This document shows, one piece after another, positions 26,363-36,138 of a stretch of 63,366 nt of DNA. This stretch comes from Rickettsiales bacterium (GTDB lineage Bacteria > Pseudomonadota > Alphaproteobacteria > Rs-D84). The stretch is taken from positions 1 to 63,366 of the forward strand of contig JAISKV010000005.1 in NCBI GenBank assembly GCA_031260805.1, in the 5' to 3' direction. The translations under genes were made by a program, and so were the position numbers. The notes beneath the pieces were generated by a model. It saw only the letters and a program-made list of their open reading frames with translations, searched no databases and was not told where the DNA came from. Position 1 is the first letter of the stretch. Each line of letters starts with the position of its first letter.

Positions 26363-26434
26363 AAGTGCAGGTGTAGGTGAAGGTGTAAGTGTAGGCCATT
26401 AACCTTCATCTCCACCTTCACCTACACTTTCACT
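26363..26434. repeat. Inverted short-unit element H6 (AGGTGT/ACCTTC)
   Basis: Six-base-spaced units (AGGTGT, AGGTGA, AGGTGT) run into a GGCCATTAACC centre and complementary TTCACC/TACACC units. The stop codon of the upstream lipoprotein lies inside it. A sister element with the GGCCATCACC centre lies at 56700-56776. Confidence 0.85.
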
Positions 26435-26867
26435 GCCCCAGACCAGCCGGCGAAAACCGCCCGACATTATTCATCAATTCTTGCAGCGCGTTCAATTCAA
26501 CCGCTGCCGGGATTGGCGTTTCATCGCCGTCCAGACCAATGCCGGCAAAGTCCCCATCGTGCAGAACCCGCGTTTTTGTAATGCGTCCCGCCCCGTCTGC
26601 CCATGCGAACAGCGCGGTTTTATTGGAAAACGAATGCGGAAACGGCCCGTTATAGTTTTCATCCGCGCCGTAATACATCAATATTTTTTCGCGCCCGTAC
26701 AGGGTCTGACCCTGGGGGCTGCCGAATTTCTCTTCCAGTCCCGCGACAGTCTTCACGCCGGCCGCCTGTGCGTCAATATCATCCGGGAACACATACCCGC
26801 GGTGCTTGGTCTGGCACGCCGCCAGACAAATGAAAGATAACAGATAAAAGATTGCAGTTTTTCTCAT
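26430..26867 (-). CDS. BamE/SmpA-like outer-membrane lipoprotein
   Basis: The 145-residue protein has lipobox LAAC (cysteine at 18) and a GYVFPDDID...GVKTVAGLEEKFGSPQG layout similar to alphaproteobacterial BamE-like lipoproteins of the Bam complex. Its signal peptide core is written in ATCTTTT heptads. It overlaps the stop codon of the giant upstream gene by ATGA. The BamE assignment is tentative because the segment after residue 60 is unusual. Confidence 0.6.
   Translation of the reverse strand: MRKTAIFYLLSFICLAACQTKHRGYVFPDDIDAQAAGVKTVAGLEEKFGSPQGQTLYGREKILMYYGADENYNGPFPHSFSNKTALFAWADGAGRITKTRVLHDGDFAGIGLDGDETPIPAAVELNALQELMNNVGRFSPAGLGQ
26826..26856. repeat. Heptad array H5 in the BamE-like signal peptide
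   Basis: On the minus strand ATCTTTT, ATCTGTT, ATCTTTC encode IFYLLSFI, the same peptide core as in the other H5-containing signal peptides. Confidence 0.75.
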
Positions 26868-29800
26868 CGTTCGCCTTTGCCATCATTTTGGTCTTTAATA
26901 TACCGCTTGTCAATACCCATGATTGTTTCGGAATATGAAATCTCAGCCTGATTTTTATCCATTTGGACCGCCGGGACGAATTCATCCGGCGCGTCAAAGA
27001 CAAACTTGATGCCGCCCTGCCCGGCCGATACCGCCGGCCGCTTGCCGCGCATCAGCATTTTGGCCGCAACGCCCAGTTTTATAAACTTGTCCATCGCGCC
27101 GGCGCCAACGACCGCCGAAATTATTTCATTCAGTTCCGCGCCGCTTAACGATTTGCTGGGATTTTTAGAGTATTCAATTATGTCGGAAAGCGCAAACAAA
27201 CCTTTCTGAATATCCGCGATATAGTCGGCGTTTACGCCCAGAATTCCGGCTTTCTTTGACATCTCTTCGGTCTTTTTAGAAATCGCGACCGCCAAATCCC
27301 GGCCATGCGCGACAGAATTCGCGACAGATTCCAGCAAATCGCCCAGCATCAAGCGGTCATTCTTGCCTGGCCGCCGCATCATCATGCCGCCGGTGTCAAA
27401 GATATTTATCGCGACATTGCCGTCGGGCAAAACCTGAAAATTCTGCTGGCCTGCATGCCGGTCAATATCCCACGCGCCGCCGGCCAGCATGTTGCGCAGT
27501 TCCAGCGCGACATACGCGCGCGCCATGTCGTGCTTTTTATCCAGCGGCAATTCGTCGCTGTTCAGCGACCGGCCCGCCGCCATGTCCATAATTTTATAGC
27601 CGTCGCCATAAAAGTTCCACTTGGCCGCGCGCGGCGAATATTTCACCCCGTCAATTTCAACCGCGGTTCCGGAATACATTTTTTCCGCCGCGACAAACTG
27701 TGCGTTTCCCGCAATCGCGTTTGTCTCGGTATCGGCGGACTGCCGCGCCCGCTTTGCAATATTCTTCATCGGCGAATAAGCGGAATCAATTTTTGACAAA
27801 TCCGCGACCGTTTTTTCAATAACGCCAAACCCGAACGCGGCCTTGTCCGATGCATTCGGACGCAGCAGTTGCAGCACTTTCGGACCGCCGTCAAATTCAA
27901 TCGCGACCGTTATCCAAAAACTGCCCGCGCCCAACAATTCCCCGACGCGCCCGATGCGCGCGCGCAGTTCATTCGGAACGGTCCGTTCAATTATGTCAAA
28001 AATTTCCGCCCTGTTCGGCGATTCCGCGCTGTCGCGCAAACGCGCCAATTCGCGGCGGATGCCGACCGGCAGCCCGTTGATATACGACACCAATTGCCCG
28101 AATTTTATCCACGCGGGGCCCATCGTCTCAAAGAACTGGCGCAGGCCGCGCCCAACCAAGGCATCCGCATCGCCCGCATCTGATTTTTCATCACCCAGAT
28201 GCCCGGACGCGGCAATTGCGGCCAGCATTGTCGGACCCGCGTTGCCGAAATTTTTTACAACGCTGGACAAAATGATTTTCGCCATAACGGAATATTTGCC
28301 GTCATCGCCGAAATACAAATTTGCGACGAAATCAACATTGTTATTCATGCTGGATGATATTTTCATGCGGCTTAACAATTTGTCCATCACGACGGTCTTT
28401 TCCGCGATGGACGCGTCGGCATAAGCCTTGTGAATCTGGCGAAATGTTTCCGCGCCAGCCCGTCCCAGCATTATTTCTGGAATCTTGGCCACGGATTCAT
28501 CCGTCAGCGGCGACAGCAGAAAATTTATAATGGATTCCGACCTGTATCCGACGGCATCCATAAGTGCGTCAAACAAGTGGCCCTTGGCTGAATGCTTATC
28601 AAAATCGGCCGCGTCAACCGTAATCGTTTTTTTGTCGCCCAACAGTTTTGCGGCCGCCGCCTGGGATACCACCCGCCTGGACAGCATTTCCAAAATCTGC
28701 TGCTGGGTCTGCGCGTCAAATTTATACGCGGCGATGCGGTCTGATTCAGCGCGGATTGCGGCCAGTTTTTCCGCGCTGCCATCATCAATGCCAATTTTCT
28801 TGACAGATTCGGCCAAGTATAAATTTATCAGCCCGGCACGCTGGTCCATGAATTTCAACGGCCCGCGCCGGTTCAGATAAGTTTTGTCTGAAAAATAATT
28901 GCCGCTTAAAACCGCCGCAGACATTTCCTGGGGATTCGGCAATGCCGCAATCGCGTCAACCAGACGGTCCAGAAAATCACCCTGGTTGTCAGCGAACAGA
29001 CCAGCATGTTCGCACACCGCGTACCAGTCAAGCAAGCCCTGGGCATCTATTGGAATTTGTCCGGATTTATTCAGCGCATCCCAAAACAACTTTAATAACG
29101 CTTTGTTGATTATTGATGAATCTACGGATGACATTTTATCCAGATCGCTGATAATTTTTAGAAAATCGGGCGCGCCGCCAAATATTTTTCCAGCAATATA
29201 AATATTTGGGTACTGCGTGCCGTGCATCTGATACAAACTGTTATCCGGAACGACGCAAAGCCGTGCAAAAATATCGCCAAACTGCCGGTCTGGCAGTCTG
29301 GAAATCGCATAATCAATTATTTTATGTGTAAGAGATCTGAAATCTGATATCCGCGATAAATATTCTATGGCTATCGCGTCCTTGGCGGCCGGGGACCATA
29401 TTTCTTTGCCATCGTCGCGGCCATCAACAAATATATGCCTTTCAATTACGGAATAACCAAATTTTCCGGAAACGCACGCCATTTTTACCAGCGCAGATGC
29501 CAGGTTATCTGGCCAGAATTTCCCGCCGCCCGCGCCGAATGTCTTGTATCCGCTGCCGCCGTCATCACCGTTTTTCTTATAATATTCAGAAATTATTTCC
29601 CAACCGATATTCATATAATTATTAAAAATTTTGTCATAATCGTCATTCTCTGAAAAAACCGCGGCCGCGGATTGCGGATCTCTGGCCCCGTTGAGCAAAT
29701 CCGCAAGAGCATTTGTTTTCGCGGCATATTTTTTGATGTTCTGTATATTTAATAATTCGTAAAACACAAGTGAATCCACCAGGCCGTGTAATATCCCATC

Positions 29801-31117
29801 TGGGCCGATTTTCATATATCCGCTGCTAGTGTTATAATAATAAAATCCGTCAATTATTGACATTTTTTTACTGGATAAATTGAATACATCTTGTAAGACC
29901 CATTGCAATTCATTAATATCATCCGCCCACAGCAACAGATTCAGCCATGGCACGCGTTCGCCCGGCGCAAAGTCCTGTTTCGGCAGATTAAATCTGAAAT
30001 ATTTTATATAAATCTGGTGCTCCCTTATGTTGGGAAGCGTCCTTTCGGCCGAATTCTTGTCAGCGGCCAGCAGCAATTCGTCAATCAAATCGCCAACATT
30101 TTGCATCTCGGGCCAGGTTGATGGCGGCAACCGCAAGGAATAATCGTTCCATATCCTGTCCATAATTGCGTCGCATTCTTTGAGCGTCCGGCCCGATTCC
30201 GCCAGCGCCGCCATGAATCCAGGATAAATCGCGCTCAATTCCGCATACGCCGGCGAATTTTTATTTATTTCGTCCCATGCAAAATTATCATCTTGGAATC
30301 TCTCTTTTGGCAAAGATTTAGAGTTCAGAACCGCTTTGCACAGGTCTGAAAATCTGTGATTATTGCCGATATTGCCGGCCCGGATTTCAGGAATCAGCGC
30401 GCGCATGATTTTCGCGGTCAAAATCTGCGACGCGTCGTCTGTCTTGAATTCGCGCCGCAATACCGATTCAACAAAACCGTATGCGCCGTCTTTCTCGGCC
30501 GCCGCCAGATACTTTTTCTGAAACCCGCCCCATCCGACGCGCAGCGCGGGATTCGGTTTCGGCGAACCCAGTTCTATTTTTTTCTTGGTCAGATAAATCC
30601 GCAGATCTTCCGATCGGGCCAGTTCGCTGCCGTGCACATCCAATGATGCCAGCAGATTTATGCTTTTATCAAACAGTTTGTCCGTAAATGCCAACGCCGC
30701 GTCAGGATCGTATCCCGCGGATATCATCATGTCAATTGAGTGCAGATCCGCCAGCCGTTCCTGGAAAATATTATTTTTGGAATCCTTCCAGATATATTGG
30801 TAAATAAAGTGGCCCAATTCATGGCCCAGAACATACGCCAACTCCGATTCGCTGGCGCACATTTTTATCAGCGCGTCATTCGCGAAAATAATATGCCTGC
30901 CGTTCAATGCGTGTTTTTTATTCACAAAGCAGGCCTGCGGCCCGTGGCCGCGGCCGGTCAGGAATGTGAATTCATTGATATCAAATTCAGGCCCGGCATG
31001 CGCCATCAGCCGCGCCGCAACCGCGCGCATTTTGTCGGACGCCATCCTGCCGGCATCTGATGCCGGATCAATGACATTCAGTTCTTCCCATAAATCTTTT
31101 GCCAGAATCTTATCCAT
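26864..31117 (-). CDS. Giant fusion: M48-type metallopeptidase domain plus ABC1/UbiB-like kinase-fold domain
   Basis: The 1417-residue protein has no signal peptide. Near the N-terminus HELGH (99-103) and ERLAD (from 120) form an M48/gluzincin zinc site. About 850 residues of helical sequence follow with no recognised domain. From about residue 990 it resembles ABC1/UbiB: GPAWIKFGQLVS (the KxGQ motif), a glycine-rich LGAGSFW loop, IDRHAGQQNF (catalytic-loop-like) and IFDTGG (DFG-like). The usual ATP lysine appears replaced by Gln in KVLQLLRP. It starts three bases after nifJ, inside the operon. The function is unknown. Confidence 0.65.
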   Translation of the reverse strand: MDKILAKDLWEELNVIDPASDAGRMASDKMRAVAARLMAHAGPEFDINEFTFLTGRGHGPQACFVNKKHALNGRHIIFANDALIKMCASESELAYVLGHELGHFIYQYIWKDSKNNIFQERLADLHSIDMMISAGYDPDAALAFTDKLFDKSINLLASLDVHGSELARSEDLRIYLTKKKIELGSPKPNPALRVGWGGFQKKYLAAAEKDGAYGFVESVLRREFKTDDASQILTAKIMRALIPEIRAGNIGNNHRFSDLCKAVLNSKSLPKERFQDDNFAWDEINKNSPAYAELSAIYPGFMAALAESGRTLKECDAIMDRIWNDYSLRLPPSTWPEMQNVGDLIDELLLAADKNSAERTLPNIREHQIYIKYFRFNLPKQDFAPGERVPWLNLLLWADDINELQWVLQDVFNLSSKKMSIIDGFYYYNTSSGYMKIGPDGILHGLVDSLVFYELLNIQNIKKYAAKTNALADLLNGARDPQSAAAVFSENDDYDKIFNNYMNIGWEIISEYYKKNGDDGGSGYKTFGAGGGKFWPDNLASALVKMACVSGKFGYSVIERHIFVDGRDDGKEIWSPAAKDAIAIEYLSRISDFRSLTHKIIDYAISRLPDRQFGDIFARLCVVPDNSLYQMHGTQYPNIYIAGKIFGGAPDFLKIISDLDKMSSVDSSIINKALLKLFWDALNKSGQIPIDAQGLLDWYAVCEHAGLFADNQGDFLDRLVDAIAALPNPQEMSAAVLSGNYFSDKTYLNRRGPLKFMDQRAGLINLYLAESVKKIGIDDGSAEKLAAIRAESDRIAAYKFDAQTQQQILEMLSRRVVSQAAAAKLLGDKKTITVDAADFDKHSAKGHLFDALMDAVGYRSESIINFLLSPLTDESVAKIPEIMLGRAGAETFRQIHKAYADASIAEKTVVMDKLLSRMKISSSMNNNVDFVANLYFGDDGKYSVMAKIILSSVVKNFGNAGPTMLAAIAASGHLGDEKSDAGDADALVGRGLRQFFETMGPAWIKFGQLVSYINGLPVGIRRELARLRDSAESPNRAEIFDIIERTVPNELRARIGRVGELLGAGSFWITVAIEFDGGPKVLQLLRPNASDKAAFGFGVIEKTVADLSKIDSAYSPMKNIAKRARQSADTETNAIAGNAQFVAAEKMYSGTAVEIDGVKYSPRAAKWNFYGDGYKIMDMAAGRSLNSDELPLDKKHDMARAYVALELRNMLAGGAWDIDRHAGQQNFQVLPDGNVAINIFDTGGMMMRRPGKNDRLMLGDLLESVANSVAHGRDLAVAISKKTEEMSKKAGILGVNADYIADIQKGLFALSDIIEYSKNPSKSLSGAELNEIISAVVGAGAMDKFIKLGVAAKMLMRGKRPAVSAGQGGIKFVFDAPDEFVPAVQMDKNQAEISYSETIMGIDKRYIKDQNDGKGER

Positions 31118-31120
31118 GTC

Positions 31121-33439
31121 TTAACTGTCTTTTTCGCGCATGGCGAAGTTTGCGATGTGCTGCTTTAACTCGCGCCGATAATCATTATTTTTTGACGCGC
31201 TGGCCACCAGTTTGTCAAAGTTCTTGTTCACCGCCGCAGCCGCCGCAAAGCGGTTTTCCGATTTTATAAATTCGGCGAACGCAGCCGCGTCCGCGCCGCT
31301 GCTGTCCATGGACAGCCCGGTTTCCGGATGAAACCTGAACAGCGGCCATGCGCCGGAATTCACGATTGACTGCTGGTGCGCCACAGAGTTTTTCAGATCA
31401 AACCCGTGCGAGATGCAAGGGCTGTACGCCAGGATTATTGACGGGCCGTCGAACGACTCGGCTTCGCGGAATGCACGGATTGCCTGGACCTGATTCGCGC
31501 CCAATGCAATCTGCGCGACATACGCGCCGGACATCATCGCAATCAGCCCCAGATCTTTTTTCGCATGCTCCTTGCCGCCGACCGCGAATTTCATGGACGC
31601 GCCGAACGGCGTAGATTTTGACGACTGGCCGCCTGTGTTGGAATACCCTTCGGTATCCAGAACCAGGACATTCACATTTTCGCCGCTGTGCAGCACATGA
31701 TCCAATCCGCCGTATCCGATATCGTACGCCCAGCCGTCCCCGCCGATTATCCAGACGGACTTGTCGGTTGCCGCATCAGCCATGGAATCCAGCATTTTCT
31801 GATTTTTATTTTCTGATTTTTCCAATGTTTCCAAAAACGCTTTTTTCTGATTCAGCGCCAAACGCATGCCCAGACCGTATTCGGCATTATCCTCAAACAG
31901 AGAATTTGACCATGCCGGGCCGCATCCGCGCGAATCCGCGCGCCAGGGCGTCGTCGGCAGGTTTCCGCCGTAAATGGAAGAGCATCCCGTCGCGTTCGCG
32001 ACCACCATCTTGTCGCCGAACAAATGCGCCAGCAATTTGATGTAAGGCGTTTCGCCGCATCCGGCGCACGCGCCCGGAAACTCAAAATAATGCGGCAGCA
32101 GTTCAATGTGCTTTGGAATGTTCAGGTTTAATTTTTCGCGCGGAAATTCAGGTAAATCCGCCGCGTCGTCAAACGCCGCCTGGTCCGCTTCGTTAATCGG
32201 AATCATGCGCAGCGCGGATACCGGACAATTTCCGACGCACACCTTGCATCCCGTGCAGTCCGCTGGACTGATGTTTAATGTGAACCGCGCATCCTGCCCC
32301 AATTCCGGCGTTTTCATATCAACAAATTTCACTTTTAACTTTTCACTTTTCACTTTATCAGAATCAACCGCGTTGATTCTGATTGCCGCGTGCGGGCACA
32401 GCATGCTGCACTTGCCGCATTGAATGCACTTGTCCAGATCAACCGCCGCGACATGCGCCGCCATCGCGCGCTTTTCATACCTGGCCGTGCCGACCGGGAA
32501 TTCGCCGTAATTCTGAAACACCGACACAGGCAGATCGTCGCCGCGCATCGCCGCCATTTCGCCCAGCGTCGCCGCAATGCCGACCGGCGCGCCGATCATC
32601 GCCGGGATAAAGTCCGGCGCGTCGGCCGCTGGCGCGGACGGCAGCCGGAATTCAATCAGAAATTCCACGGCGCGGTCAACCGCCGCCCAGTTAGCCGCGA
32701 CGATATCCATGCCTTTCTTTTTATATGTCTTTTCAATCGCGTCTTTGGCGGACCCGGCCGCGACCGCCGGATCAATAATTTTCGTCAGATTGAAGAAATT
32801 CAGCATGATGAAAGTATTTGTTCTGCTGCCCAGCCCCAGTTCCGCCGCCGCCCGATTCGCATCCAGAAAATAAACGCGCGCGCGCATGCGTATCAAATGC
32901 TCGGCCGCGCTGCGCGGCAGCATCGCGAATGCATCCGCGGGCGCGATTCCGGTGTTTATCATAACAGTGCCGCCGGGCCGCAATCCGCGGAAGACATCAA
33001 ACCGCCGCGCGATGATGAAATTGGAAACCGATATGAAATCCGCGTATTCCACCAAGTATTGCGACCGTATGTGATCCGGCGCGAATCGCAGATGCGAAGC
33101 GGTCAGCCCGCCGCTTTTCTTGGAATCGTAAACCGCGTATGACTGGGGAAACAATTCCGAATTTTCACCGACAATCTTTACAATGTTCTTGACCGCGCCG
33201 ACCGTGCCGTCAGACCCAATTCCGTAAAGAATCGCGGACCGGTATCCCGCATCGTCATTCGCGAACAGCGGATCGGTTTTCAGCGACAGCCCGGTCAGAT
33301 CATCATTGATTCCGACGGTAAAGTTATGACGCAGTTCGCCCAGTTTCATATCGCGCACAATGGCCGCGACATCGCGCGGCTTGAACTCTTTGGACCCCAG
33401 TCCGTACCGCCCGCCGAAAATTTTTATATCTTTATGCAT
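31121..33439 (-). CDS. nifJ: Pyruvate:ferredoxin oxidoreductase, C-terminal part
   Basis: The 772-residue protein corresponds to the C-terminal two thirds of single-chain PFOR. It begins at IFGGRYGLGSKEF, has two 4Fe-4S motifs (CIQCGKCSMLCP and CTGCKVCVGNCP), then the thiamine-diphosphate domain with CAGCGETPY and GGDGWAYDIGYGG. With the N-terminal part 1.5 kb upstream it should oxidise pyruvate to acetyl-CoA and reduce ferredoxin. A heptad array is translated between the two cluster motifs. Confidence 0.93.
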   Translation of the reverse strand: MHKDIKIFGGRYGLGSKEFKPRDVAAIVRDMKLGELRHNFTVGINDDLTGLSLKTDPLFANDDAGYRSAILYGIGSDGTVGAVKNIVKIVGENSELFPQSYAVYDSKKSGGLTASHLRFAPDHIRSQYLVEYADFISVSNFIIARRFDVFRGLRPGGTVMINTGIAPADAFAMLPRSAAEHLIRMRARVYFLDANRAAAELGLGSRTNTFIMLNFFNLTKIIDPAVAAGSAKDAIEKTYKKKGMDIVAANWAAVDRAVEFLIEFRLPSAPAADAPDFIPAMIGAPVGIAATLGEMAAMRGDDLPVSVFQNYGEFPVGTARYEKRAMAAHVAAVDLDKCIQCGKCSMLCPHAAIRINAVDSDKVKSEKLKVKFVDMKTPELGQDARFTLNISPADCTGCKVCVGNCPVSALRMIPINEADQAAFDDAADLPEFPREKLNLNIPKHIELLPHYFEFPGACAGCGETPYIKLLAHLFGDKMVVANATGCSSIYGGNLPTTPWRADSRGCGPAWSNSLFEDNAEYGLGMRLALNQKKAFLETLEKSENKNQKMLDSMADAATDKSVWIIGGDGWAYDIGYGGLDHVLHSGENVNVLVLDTEGYSNTGGQSSKSTPFGASMKFAVGGKEHAKKDLGLIAMMSGAYVAQIALGANQVQAIRAFREAESFDGPSIILAYSPCISHGFDLKNSVAHQQSIVNSGAWPLFRFHPETGLSMDSSGADAAAFAEFIKSENRFAAAAAVNKNFDKLVASASKNNDYRRELKQHIANFAMREKDS
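32327..32357. repeat. Heptad array H3 (AAAGTGA/TTTTCAC) inside nifJ
   Basis: Units TTTTAAC, TTTTCAC, TTTTCAC are translated on the minus strand as KVKSEKLKVKF between the two ferredoxin-like motifs. One unit carries TTAA in place of TCAC, which avoids an in-frame stop. Confidence 0.85.
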
Positions 33440-33443
33440 TTAA

Positions 33444-34091
33444 TCAAGCCTTTGTTTCTTTCAACCAACTTTTAATAGATTTTACCGATGAAACGGCTAT
33501 CACAATCTCTGCGAAAATATACAGCCAGGATCCGGACATTGCAAATAAAAACACCCCGAAACTGTCGGCGGCAAGAAAGCAGAACCAAGCGTCTATTTTC
33601 TTTCTTATAATCAGGACATTTCCGACAAGAATCAACGCGGTATACAGCCAGTCCATGATTGTAATCGCCCCCAGTTCTGTTCCGAAAAACATCACCCAGG
33701 CAGCGGCAGCCAGAACGAGAGCGATTCTTAACCGACTGTCCAAAAACGACGGTTTTAATTCTTTTTTATTCTTGGCCGGGTGCCGCCAAGACCAGATTGA
33801 CAATGCCAGAATCGCGCATAAAACAATGGATAGAGTCATGTTCCCATACAATCCCAAATGCCAAAACCACCACGCCAAAATTGCGCGAAACGCCATGTTG
33901 AAAATGAAACCCTGAACTTTTTGCCTGCGGATCAGATCAATTGAAACAGGAACGATTATGACCGCAATCAGTTCTATCGGCGACACTGAAATTCCGAAAC
34001 AAAAACGCAGCGCGGCAACCCAAACGGCCAAAGCCGCCCAGAAAAAAGCAATCATTCTGTTTTCATAAACAAACCGTCTCATTTCAGACAT
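33444..34091 (-). CDS. PnuC-like nicotinamide riboside (vitamin) transporter
   Basis: The 215-residue membrane protein has about six to seven hydrophobic helices and PnuC-like features: a conserved FWHLGLYGNMTLS segment and a W-rich IWSW followed by a charged loop. Members import nicotinamide riboside or thiamine precursors by facilitated diffusion. It lies between the two PFOR halves with four-base spacing to the downstream half. The substrate is not determined. Confidence 0.65.
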   Translation of the reverse strand: MSEMRRFVYENRMIAFFWAALAVWVAALRFCFGISVSPIELIAVIIVPVSIDLIRRQKVQGFIFNMAFRAILAWWFWHLGLYGNMTLSIVLCAILALSIWSWRHPAKNKKELKPSFLDSRLRIALVLAAAAWVMFFGTELGAITIMDWLYTALILVGNVLIIRKKIDAWFCFLAADSFGVFLFAMSGSWLYIFAEIVIAVSSVKSIKSWLKETKA

Positions 34092-34476
34092 TCCTGTTGT
34101 TCAGTATCGTAATTGTCAATTTGCACTTATTCCCCTTCGCCAGCGAAGGGGAATAATCTGGAATAAACACCGCTTCTTTTTTAGTCACACCTGTGCCAAC
34201 AGATATAATCATATCAAGATTGTAATAATCTAATTCTTCTGTCGTTGTGCCGCGAAATCCTTGCTCTATGACTGTTGCAATTTTTGCAACAGTCGCGTTT
34301 TCCGTCAGTTCACCATCGGAAAATATATTCTTTATATGCCTTGATATATTTGATTTATCCCTGCCAAACAGGGTTGAAATCTGATTAAGATTCAACCATA
34401 CCGTATCATTTTCCAACCGAACTTCAACATGATTTCCATTCGGATTTTCATAAATTATTATCTGATTATTTTCCAT
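34084..34476 (-). pseudogene. Truncated RhuM-family protein
   Basis: The 130-residue product matches only the N-terminal third of RhuM-type proteins (LNLNQISTLFGRDKSNISRHI, LDYYNLDMIISVG). After that a family A palindrome core supplies DYSPSLAKGNK and a short tail to the stop. The rest of the gene is missing, so it is probably a remnant. It overlaps the start of the PnuC-like gene. Confidence 0.7.
34129..34155. repeat. Core hairpin of palindromic family A inside the RhuM remnant
   Basis: ATTCCCCTTCGCCAGCGAAG and its closing strand form a near-perfect palindrome identical to the core hairpin of complete family A elements. It is in frame near the 3' end of the remnant. Confidence 0.8.
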
Positions 34477-34489
34477 TTATCTATCCGTA

Positions 34490-34924
34490 TCACAACTCTT
34501 TTATCATCTCAACGAAAGTCTCGCCGGCGACAAAGCCAAACCGCTTGTAAAAATTCACAAGGCGCGGATTTTGCGAATCTGCATACAAAACTAAGTATTT
34601 GCCACCGTTTTCTTTTACGCGCGCGGCAAACGCGTCCATAATTTTTTTATAAACATCCGTTCCGCGAAAATCCGGATGAACCGTAAAATAACTCCCCATG
34701 GCCCAGGTCGGATTTACAAAATTTTCACCAAACACGAATGCGATAATTTTATTGTTTTGTTCCGCAACAAGAACTATGCCGCGCTGCGCGTCTATCTGAT
34801 TTTGCAAATCAATATCACTGAAAGAAATTTCCGCATCAGAACCGGCGCCAAAAGTCAGCACCCCAATTTTTTGCAGTTCTTTGATTGCATCAAAATCTTT
34901 GGGCTGCGCATTGCGAATTATCAT
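34490..34924 (-). CDS. GNAT-family N-acetyltransferase
   Basis: The 144-residue protein has the GNAT layout: an N-terminal IIRNAQPKDFDAI strand-helix, YFTVHPDFRGTDVYKKIMDA as motif A and NPRLVNFYKRFGF near the end. It starts three bases after the stop codon of the PFOR N-terminal part and is one of three passenger genes between the PFOR halves. The substrate is unknown. Confidence 0.75.
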   Translation of the reverse strand: MIIRNAQPKDFDAIKELQKIGVLTFGAGSDAEISFSDIDLQNQIDAQRGIVLVAEQNNKIIAFVFGENFVNPTWAMGSYFTVHPDFRGTDVYKKIMDAFAARVKENGGKYLVLYADSQNPRLVNFYKRFGFVAGETFVEMIKEL

Positions 34925-34927
34925 TCC

Positions 34928-36138
<1,211 letters not shown>

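Follow-up and report, generated by a model that had tools for sequence, protein, structure and literature searches.

A gene in the window, by which we mean the whole stretch of 63,366 nucleotides that was analyzed, raises the question of whether a zinc metalloprotease and an ABC1-like kinase can be joined in a single chain and, if so, what such a protein might do for its host, an alphaproteobacterium of the gut whose genome is very small (729 kb in 15 contigs; completeness, 93.5%). The gene and its parts are as follows.

26864..31117, minus strand: fusion gene, 1417 aa, with an ATG start and no internal stop.
30473..31117, minus strand: M48-type metallopeptidase domain, residues 1-215 (fold match 2-209), from Pfam M48, profile hits and the model compared with BepA.
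30809..30823, minus strand: HELGH, residues 99-103, predicted zinc site by motif position.
30731..30763, minus strand: QERLADLHSID, residues 119-129, with the predicted third zinc ligand E120 and D124, invariant in 9/9 members.
28241..30472, minus strand: mostly helical middle, residues 216-959, belonging to no known family, from models of low confidence at about residues 500-650.
27032..28240, minus strand: ABC1/UbiB-type kinase-like domain, residues 960-1362, from hhalign and the model compared with COQ8A.
28094..28105, minus strand: KFGQ, residues 1005-1008, the KxGQ motif of ABC1 proteins by alignment and motif position.
27917..27934, minus strand: LGAGSF, residues 1062-1067, nucleotide loop by alignment, Gly-rich where that of ABC1 proteins is Ala-rich.
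27869..27871, minus strand: Q1083 (in KVLQLLRP), column of the beta3 VAIK lysine in MAFFT and hhalign alignments.
27725..27727, minus strand: E1131, first Glu of the ExD motif, Glu in 29/29 family members.
27593..27595, minus strand: K1175, lysine of strand beta5 (YKIM), proposed stand-in for the beta3 lysine, from the alignment and model strand 485-489.
27437..27472, minus strand: WDIDRHAGQQNF, residues 1216-1227, catalytic-loop equivalent of HADPHPGN with D1219, by alignment and hhalign.
27389..27397, minus strand: DTG, residues 1241-1243, DFG equivalent, with Asp in 29/29 family members.
26894..26959, minus strand: tail motif DKNQAEIS...IMGIDKRYIK, residues 1387-1408, short and conserved, in a model segment of low confidence.

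Both sets of motifs that a sequence-only reading had placed in one chain were located in this single open reading frame (HELGH at 99-103, E120, KFGQ at 1005-1008, and LGAGSF at 1062-1067). An alignment of nine intact, full-length, single-ORF proteins, that of the window included, shows H99, E100, H103, E120, K1005, Q1008, G1063, G1065, S1066, E1131, K1175, D1219, and D1241 to be invariant. HExxH and KxGQ taken alone are weak evidence, since 5,000 shuffles of the window protein yielded HExxH in 1.5% of cases, KxGQ in 20%, and the two together in 0.24%; we therefore relied on profiles and folds. Among 31 family sequences or fragments, no stretch of 19 residues exceeded a mean hydropathy of 1.6, and the protein is apparently soluble, with neither membrane segment nor signal peptide by this measure. 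The tail carries a pattern (K..EI followed by LG[IV]) that lies at the C terminus of many members in a poorly modeled region; a scan of 863 frames for this motif as a general secretion tag gave only chance-looking matches outside the family.

The N-terminal domain is recognizable as an M48 peptidase by several routes. Pfam M48 scores 24.6 bits on the window protein, against a cut-off of 20.3, and matches 9/9 aligned members at an E value of 0.1 or less; the profile of the domain finds M48 peptidases among solved structures (best E, 6e-12). The AlphaFold2 model of residues 1 to 720, built from 15 sequences, has a mean pLDDT of 64, with block means mostly above 80 in residues 11 to 150, and its N-terminal part superimposes on BepA with a Z score of 18.1 (181 residues aligned, 3.3 A) and on Ste24p with a Z score of 9.9. 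The gluzincin fold, HExxH, the downstream Glu within ExxxD, and later His and Arg positions are common to the fusion and the M48 peptidases BepA/YfgC (6sar and 6ait) and Q74D82 (3c37), the last of which we take to be from Geobacter. Those peptidases stand alone or are accompanied by TPR repeats, whereas this domain heads a chain of 1,417 residues with no apparent signal peptide. HExxH is present in 24 of the 27 members with a readable N terminus (21/24 in the initial set and 3/3 newly found nonduplicates); three loci, L161 to L163, are without it and yet keep the architecture. Because the catalytic residues are conserved, we think that the protease half is probably active. The region that follows, from residue 216 to 700, varies rapidly among members, and a profile of the middle (A5) matched nothing in the PDB by sequence. 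Helical-repeat structures resembled its model at low Z scores, and the model is weak; its fold is accordingly left unnamed.

The C-terminal part proved harder to place by simple searches. With the full protein as the query, phmmer gave only a chance match among solved structures, a kinase profile (A3) gave none there, and PF03109 matched neither the window protein nor the aligned members; the relationship to ABC1 proteins is drawn from UbiB models, hhalign, and the fold. The NCBIfam UbiB model (TIGR01982) matches residues 980 to 1265 with an E value of 2.9e-6, at 26.1 bits and thus far under its cut-off of 487.55, and an hhalign comparison of the kinase-like domain with 14 ordinary ABC1 proteins gives a Prob of 99.2 and an E value of 2.9e-19. 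An AlphaFold2 model of residues 690 to 1417, built from 18 sequences with ordinary ABC1 sequences left out of the input, has a mean pLDDT of 76 and a pTM of 0.71; all 12 of its Foldseek matches with an E value of 0.001 or less are ABC1-family proteins, and it aligns with COQ8A over 321 residues (Z, 14.3; 4.3 A). Profiles, models, and structural comparison thus agree that one chain contains both the fold of a zinc protease and a fold like that of ABC1 proteins. Separately, an unannotated phage family, phrog_9248, matches 6/9 members, with 7.5e-6 as the lowest E value; its match in the window protein covers residues 989 to 1027 (about 28037-28153), in the KxGQ region, and the family perhaps represents phage-borne ABC1-like proteins.

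The domain shares with ABC1/UbiB proteins (COQ8A, which is ADCK3; MSMEG_1954; and UbiB) the fold, the KxGQ motif, the ExD Glu (E1131), the catalytic-loop Asp (D1219), and the metal Asp (D1241), and it differs from them in much of the remaining nucleotide site, in the attached protease, and in its setting, where no quinone context was detected. The Ala-rich nucleotide loop is replaced by GAGS (1063-1066); at the position of G1065, Gly is found in 20/20 members of one clade of the family, clade A, versus Ala in 59/62 ordinary ABC1 proteins. According to passages of a study of ADCK3, putting one Gly back into the Ala-rich loop shifts nucleotide preference and allows autophosphorylation (PMC4718504); clade A has Gly in this loop by nature. 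The beta3 lysine is gone and DFG has become DTG. The catalytic-loop Asn is Gln in 18/20 clade A members in the MAFFT alignment, while hhalign treats QQ as an insertion and keeps N1226 in register. D1219, D1241, and the beta5 lysine are each present in 20/20 clade A members. The alphaC Glu, which is the partner of the lysine in COQ8A and is Glu in 62/62 ordinary ABC1 proteins, is G1137 in the window protein and has been lost from 29/29 family members and from the 3 found later; as this loss extends to members that keep the beta3 lysine, the whole family may consist of weak nucleotide binders.

The sequence-only reading had suggested that the ATP lysine was replaced by Gln, and the alignments bear this out: Q1083 occupies the beta3 column, which holds Lys in 62/62 ordinary ABC1 proteins. 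Its further suggestion that the kinase half may be a pseudokinase is weakened by a possibly compensating lysine (once an Arg) on beta5, which is absent from that column in 62/62 ordinary ABC1 proteins. Wherever the beta3 lysine has been lost, beta5 carries Lys or Arg (25/25; 24 Lys and 1 Arg), and wherever it is kept, beta5 carries Ala, Leu, or Ile (69/69; 7 family members and 62 ordinary ABC1 proteins). In clade A, beta3 is Gln, Ser, or Ala and beta5 is Lys in 20/20 sequences; the other clade (n = 9) comprises seven members with beta3 Lys and beta5 Ala, one with Gly and Lys, and one with Ser and Arg; all 62 ordinary ABC1 proteins combine beta3 Lys with beta5 Leu or Ile. The rule was stated on an initial set in which 22/22 members without the beta3 lysine had beta5 Lys or Arg (21 Lys and 1 Arg), and three nonduplicate members found afterward (two in genome G572 and one in G423) obeyed it in 3/3 cases. 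These kinase counts exclude a fragment (L164/L165 in G237), as well as G697, which duplicates L162. Fisher's P over all 94 sequences is 2e-23, a value to be read with their kinship in mind. The maximum-likelihood tree requires two changes for the lysine pattern, and AU tests do not reject a single exchange (p = 0.18 and 0.39 in two tests); perhaps no more than one or two events underlie the covariation.

Strands beta3 and beta5 are adjacent in protein kinase structures. Profile-profile alignment by hhalign places both sites in the same register as MAFFT does, and in the model Q1083 (model residue 394) falls within a predicted strand at 389 to 396 and K1175 (model residue 486) within one predicted at 485 to 489. 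K1175 presumably lies two residues ahead of the one that corresponds to the hinge-side Met (PKA M118 and Abl I313), at a position that we take to face the back of the nucleotide cleft in protein kinases. It is most likely that K1175 takes the place of the beta3 ATP lysine, as judged from these alignments. The nearest precedents are WNK1 and POMK, for which passages of one source (PMC10211241) describe an ATP lysine moved to beta2, its importance shown by mutation. They resemble the fusion in that beta3 lacks the VAIK lysine while a different strand of the N lobe carries one; theirs is backed by mutation, whereas that of the fusion lies on beta5 in another kinase-like family and is known from sequence only. 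Our search of the literature found no fitting case of an ATP lysine on beta5.

Since a beta5 lysine (once an Arg) appears wherever the beta3 lysine is lost, "pseudokinase" is no longer the obvious reading, and relocation of the lysine is, on the alignments, a live alternative to it. A true pseudokinase scaffold would be a dead ABC1-like binding module in which K1175 serves packing or interaction only and the protease is the sole catalyst. Loss of the beta3 Lys and alphaC Glu, the change of DFG to DTG, and the mostly Gln-substituted Asn speak for such a scaffold, as do L161 to L163, which preserve the layout although both active sites are eroded. In clade A, however, the loop is Gly-rich throughout, neither Asp is lost, and a Lys that may compensate is always present, a pattern that free decay would not yield, and we regard a dead scaffold as somewhat unlikely.

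A quinone role for the fusion seems unlikely because its own genome shows neither an ordinary ABC1 match nor UbiA: PF03109 found nothing there, versus 13/14 control genomes positive, and UbiA was likewise without a match in this 93.5% complete assembly, versus 14/14 control genomes positive. The absence of ordinary ABC1 genes applies to the fusion's own genome, as the profiles used order-wide miss many.

Relatives of the fusion were found in 16/183 genomes of the same family, 14/201 of the same order, and 14/153 of a second order; a single-sequence scan of genome contigs had found none, and the alignment-based scan succeeded. A one-genome-per-species collection yielded 79 loci, 17 of the fusion family and 62 ordinary ABC1 genes, the former nearly all from alphaproteobacterial or proteobacterial metagenome-assembled genomes, many of ruminant gut to judge by their titles. 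Class-wide, 20/385 genomes gave a match, 4 of them family-like by score (the fusion's own genome, G572, G697, and G423) and 16 ordinary ABC1-like by score and frame length. Members that have both domains and are uncut by a contig edge measure 1,198 to 2,481 aa. About 700 residues beyond the kinase domain of the longest (L059:3410-10852, 2,481 aa) have no assignment, and the three members L161 to L163 (about 1,990 aa, beside PPDK) have lost much of the kinase catalytic loop along with HExxH and retain the beta3 lysine and overall layout. The fusion is a patchily distributed family, apparently mobile in part, in several alphaproteobacterial lineages. Profile A4, which is divergent and had no positive control, detected no M48 gene beside the 62 ordinary ABC1 genes. 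The sequence-only reading knew of no description of such a chain, and our literature searches on UbiB or ABC1 with metalloprotease or peptidase M48 likewise turned up no such fusion. In the plastoglobule, according to passages of two sources, an M48 protease, PGM48, shares a compartment with ABC1K kinases (PMC3635846 and PMC12587418); these are separate, unfused plastid proteins, whereas the fusion is a single chain. The folds are known; their combination is new, and the lysine position is unusual.

The patchy distribution, with members of the two orders interleaved in the kinase tree, speaks for a single-gene defense against phages or mobile elements, in which a sensor part would free the protease upon infection after the manner of the Lit protease, and several neighborhoods point the same way. 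In G572, each of two fusion copies (L199 and L200) has as neighbors an integrase of phage type and a mobilization gene resembling NikA/MobC, one of them also two AbiE systems, and both are apparently on mobile elements; in G017 a serine recombinase adjoins the fusion, and in G141 a 1,420-aa helicase-nuclease (L033:12983-17242) that matches the candidate defense family PDC-S37 (E, 4.5e-139) lies about 65 bp downstream of it. A weak NCBIfam Lit match (E, 0.008) may be added. Against this, no PADLOC family matched any of the nine aligned members at an E value of 0.1 or less, most loci have no recognized defense gene as an immediate neighbor, and the viral contigs, phages, and plasmids searched held no fusion; a defensive function is, in our judgment, unlikely.

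The immediate surroundings of the gene in the window suggest another connection.

31121..33439, minus strand: PFOR part 2, 772 aa, 3 bp upstream of the fusion gene.
34928..36001, minus strand: PFOR part 1, 357 aa, a neighbor.
26430..26867, minus strand: putative lipoprotein, 145 aa, overlapping the 3' end of the fusion gene by 4 bp.

The fusion start codon lies 3 bp past the stop codon of PFOR part 2, and its 3' end shares 4 bp with the gene that follows, so that the description of the gene as locked in the PFOR operon is apt for the window genome; it does not extend to the family, where PFOR is the immediate neighbor at 2 of the 26 loci with at least one neighbor read (the window and L058). 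In the window, PFOR (31121-36001) comes as two genes, separated by a GNAT acetyltransferase, by a gene of 130 aa that weakly matches RhuM, and by PnuC; PFOR is also split in G008 (L178), with its parts about 200 bp apart, and its frames in most other carriers are 1,166 to 1,217 aa. The 145-aa putative lipoprotein has an LAAC lipobox, matches LPAM_1 only at an E value of 0.43, and has no family match over a cut-off. Elsewhere, PFL or its activase adjoins the fusion at 2/26 loci (L048 and L051) and PPDK at 3/26 (L161 to L163); LpxK/DUF374-type genes lie near it in five genomes of one genus, and TrmJ-type genes lie at or near L058, L157, and L158 and, by Pfam SpoU, at L159. No neighbor is constant across the fusion loci.

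These data bear on the proposal that the fusion regulates pyruvate-converting enzymes (PFOR, PFL, and PPDK), or serves as their quality-control protease, and is gated by energy charge. Such enzymes adjoin 7/26 loci. The estimated P is 4e-6 when orthologous loci are counted once and each genome is allowed three operons of this kind; the value presupposes a density of one gene per kb and operon numbers that are guesses, and it applies to a post hoc grouping. PFL occurs in 2/14 genomes searched, and the fusion adjoins it in both, whereas PFOR is present in all 14 and adjoins the fusion in only 2. No pyruvate-converting enzyme is recognized at the other 19 loci, orientation varies, and some of the links reflect shared descent; such a regulator seems to us quite improbable.

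The probable lifestyle of the host suggests a further role. Order Rs-D84, to which the host probably belongs, is described, in passages of one study, as fermentative, without a respiratory chain, and likely partner dependent, and a symbiotic or parasitic lifestyle is proposed for it (PMC12306168). A protein delivered into a partner cell would suit that lifestyle, and the large size, fast-changing middle, and conserved tail motif could be read accordingly, but neither a signal peptide nor a membrane segment is seen by hydropathy, and we consider delivery highly improbable. A search for ATP/ADP translocase as lifestyle evidence was dropped because no control genome matched.

The explanation that we prefer, tentatively and at a little under even confidence, is that of an accessory M48-type protease coupled to, and controlled by, a rebuilt ABC1/UbiB nucleotide-binding domain. 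The zinc protease would be linked through the long helical middle to an ABC1-type domain that would no longer be in the service of quinone synthesis. That domain would bind, and perhaps hydrolyze, an adenine nucleotide, with K1175 on beta5 filling the role of the ATP lysine displaced from beta3, and its nucleotide state might switch the protease or position it on a protein target. The window protein keeps the KxGQ plug and both Asp residues expected at the catalytic and metal sites, and it is the lysine covariation together with the fold that leads us to read the domain as a putative nucleotide-responsive regulator. The anatomy is well supported: computation shows the two folds, protease residues that are intact, the covariation of the lysines, a genome of its own with neither UbiA nor an ordinary ABC1 match, and a distribution that is patchy and in part mobile. 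Nucleotide binding, the part played by K1175, coupling to the protease, and the target are inferred. The fuller picture is possible but doubtful: an adenine-nucleotide-gated metalloprotease with its ATP lysine on beta5, which would add a third position to the canonical one and to that on beta2 in WNK1 and POMK, carried by Alphaproteobacteria of anoxic habitats as an accessory and sometimes mobile cargo, at several loci beside pyruvate-converting enzymes.

M48 proteases and ABC1 kinases are both ancient, share a compartment in plastids, and were found in one chain nowhere else; with the fusion, a functional link between the two can be put to the test. Because one family holds both lysine states, nature itself provides a case in which to examine how an ATP lysine may change strand, and the occurrence of an ABC1-type domain without any detected quinone-pathway gene bears on the root function of ABC1 proteins.
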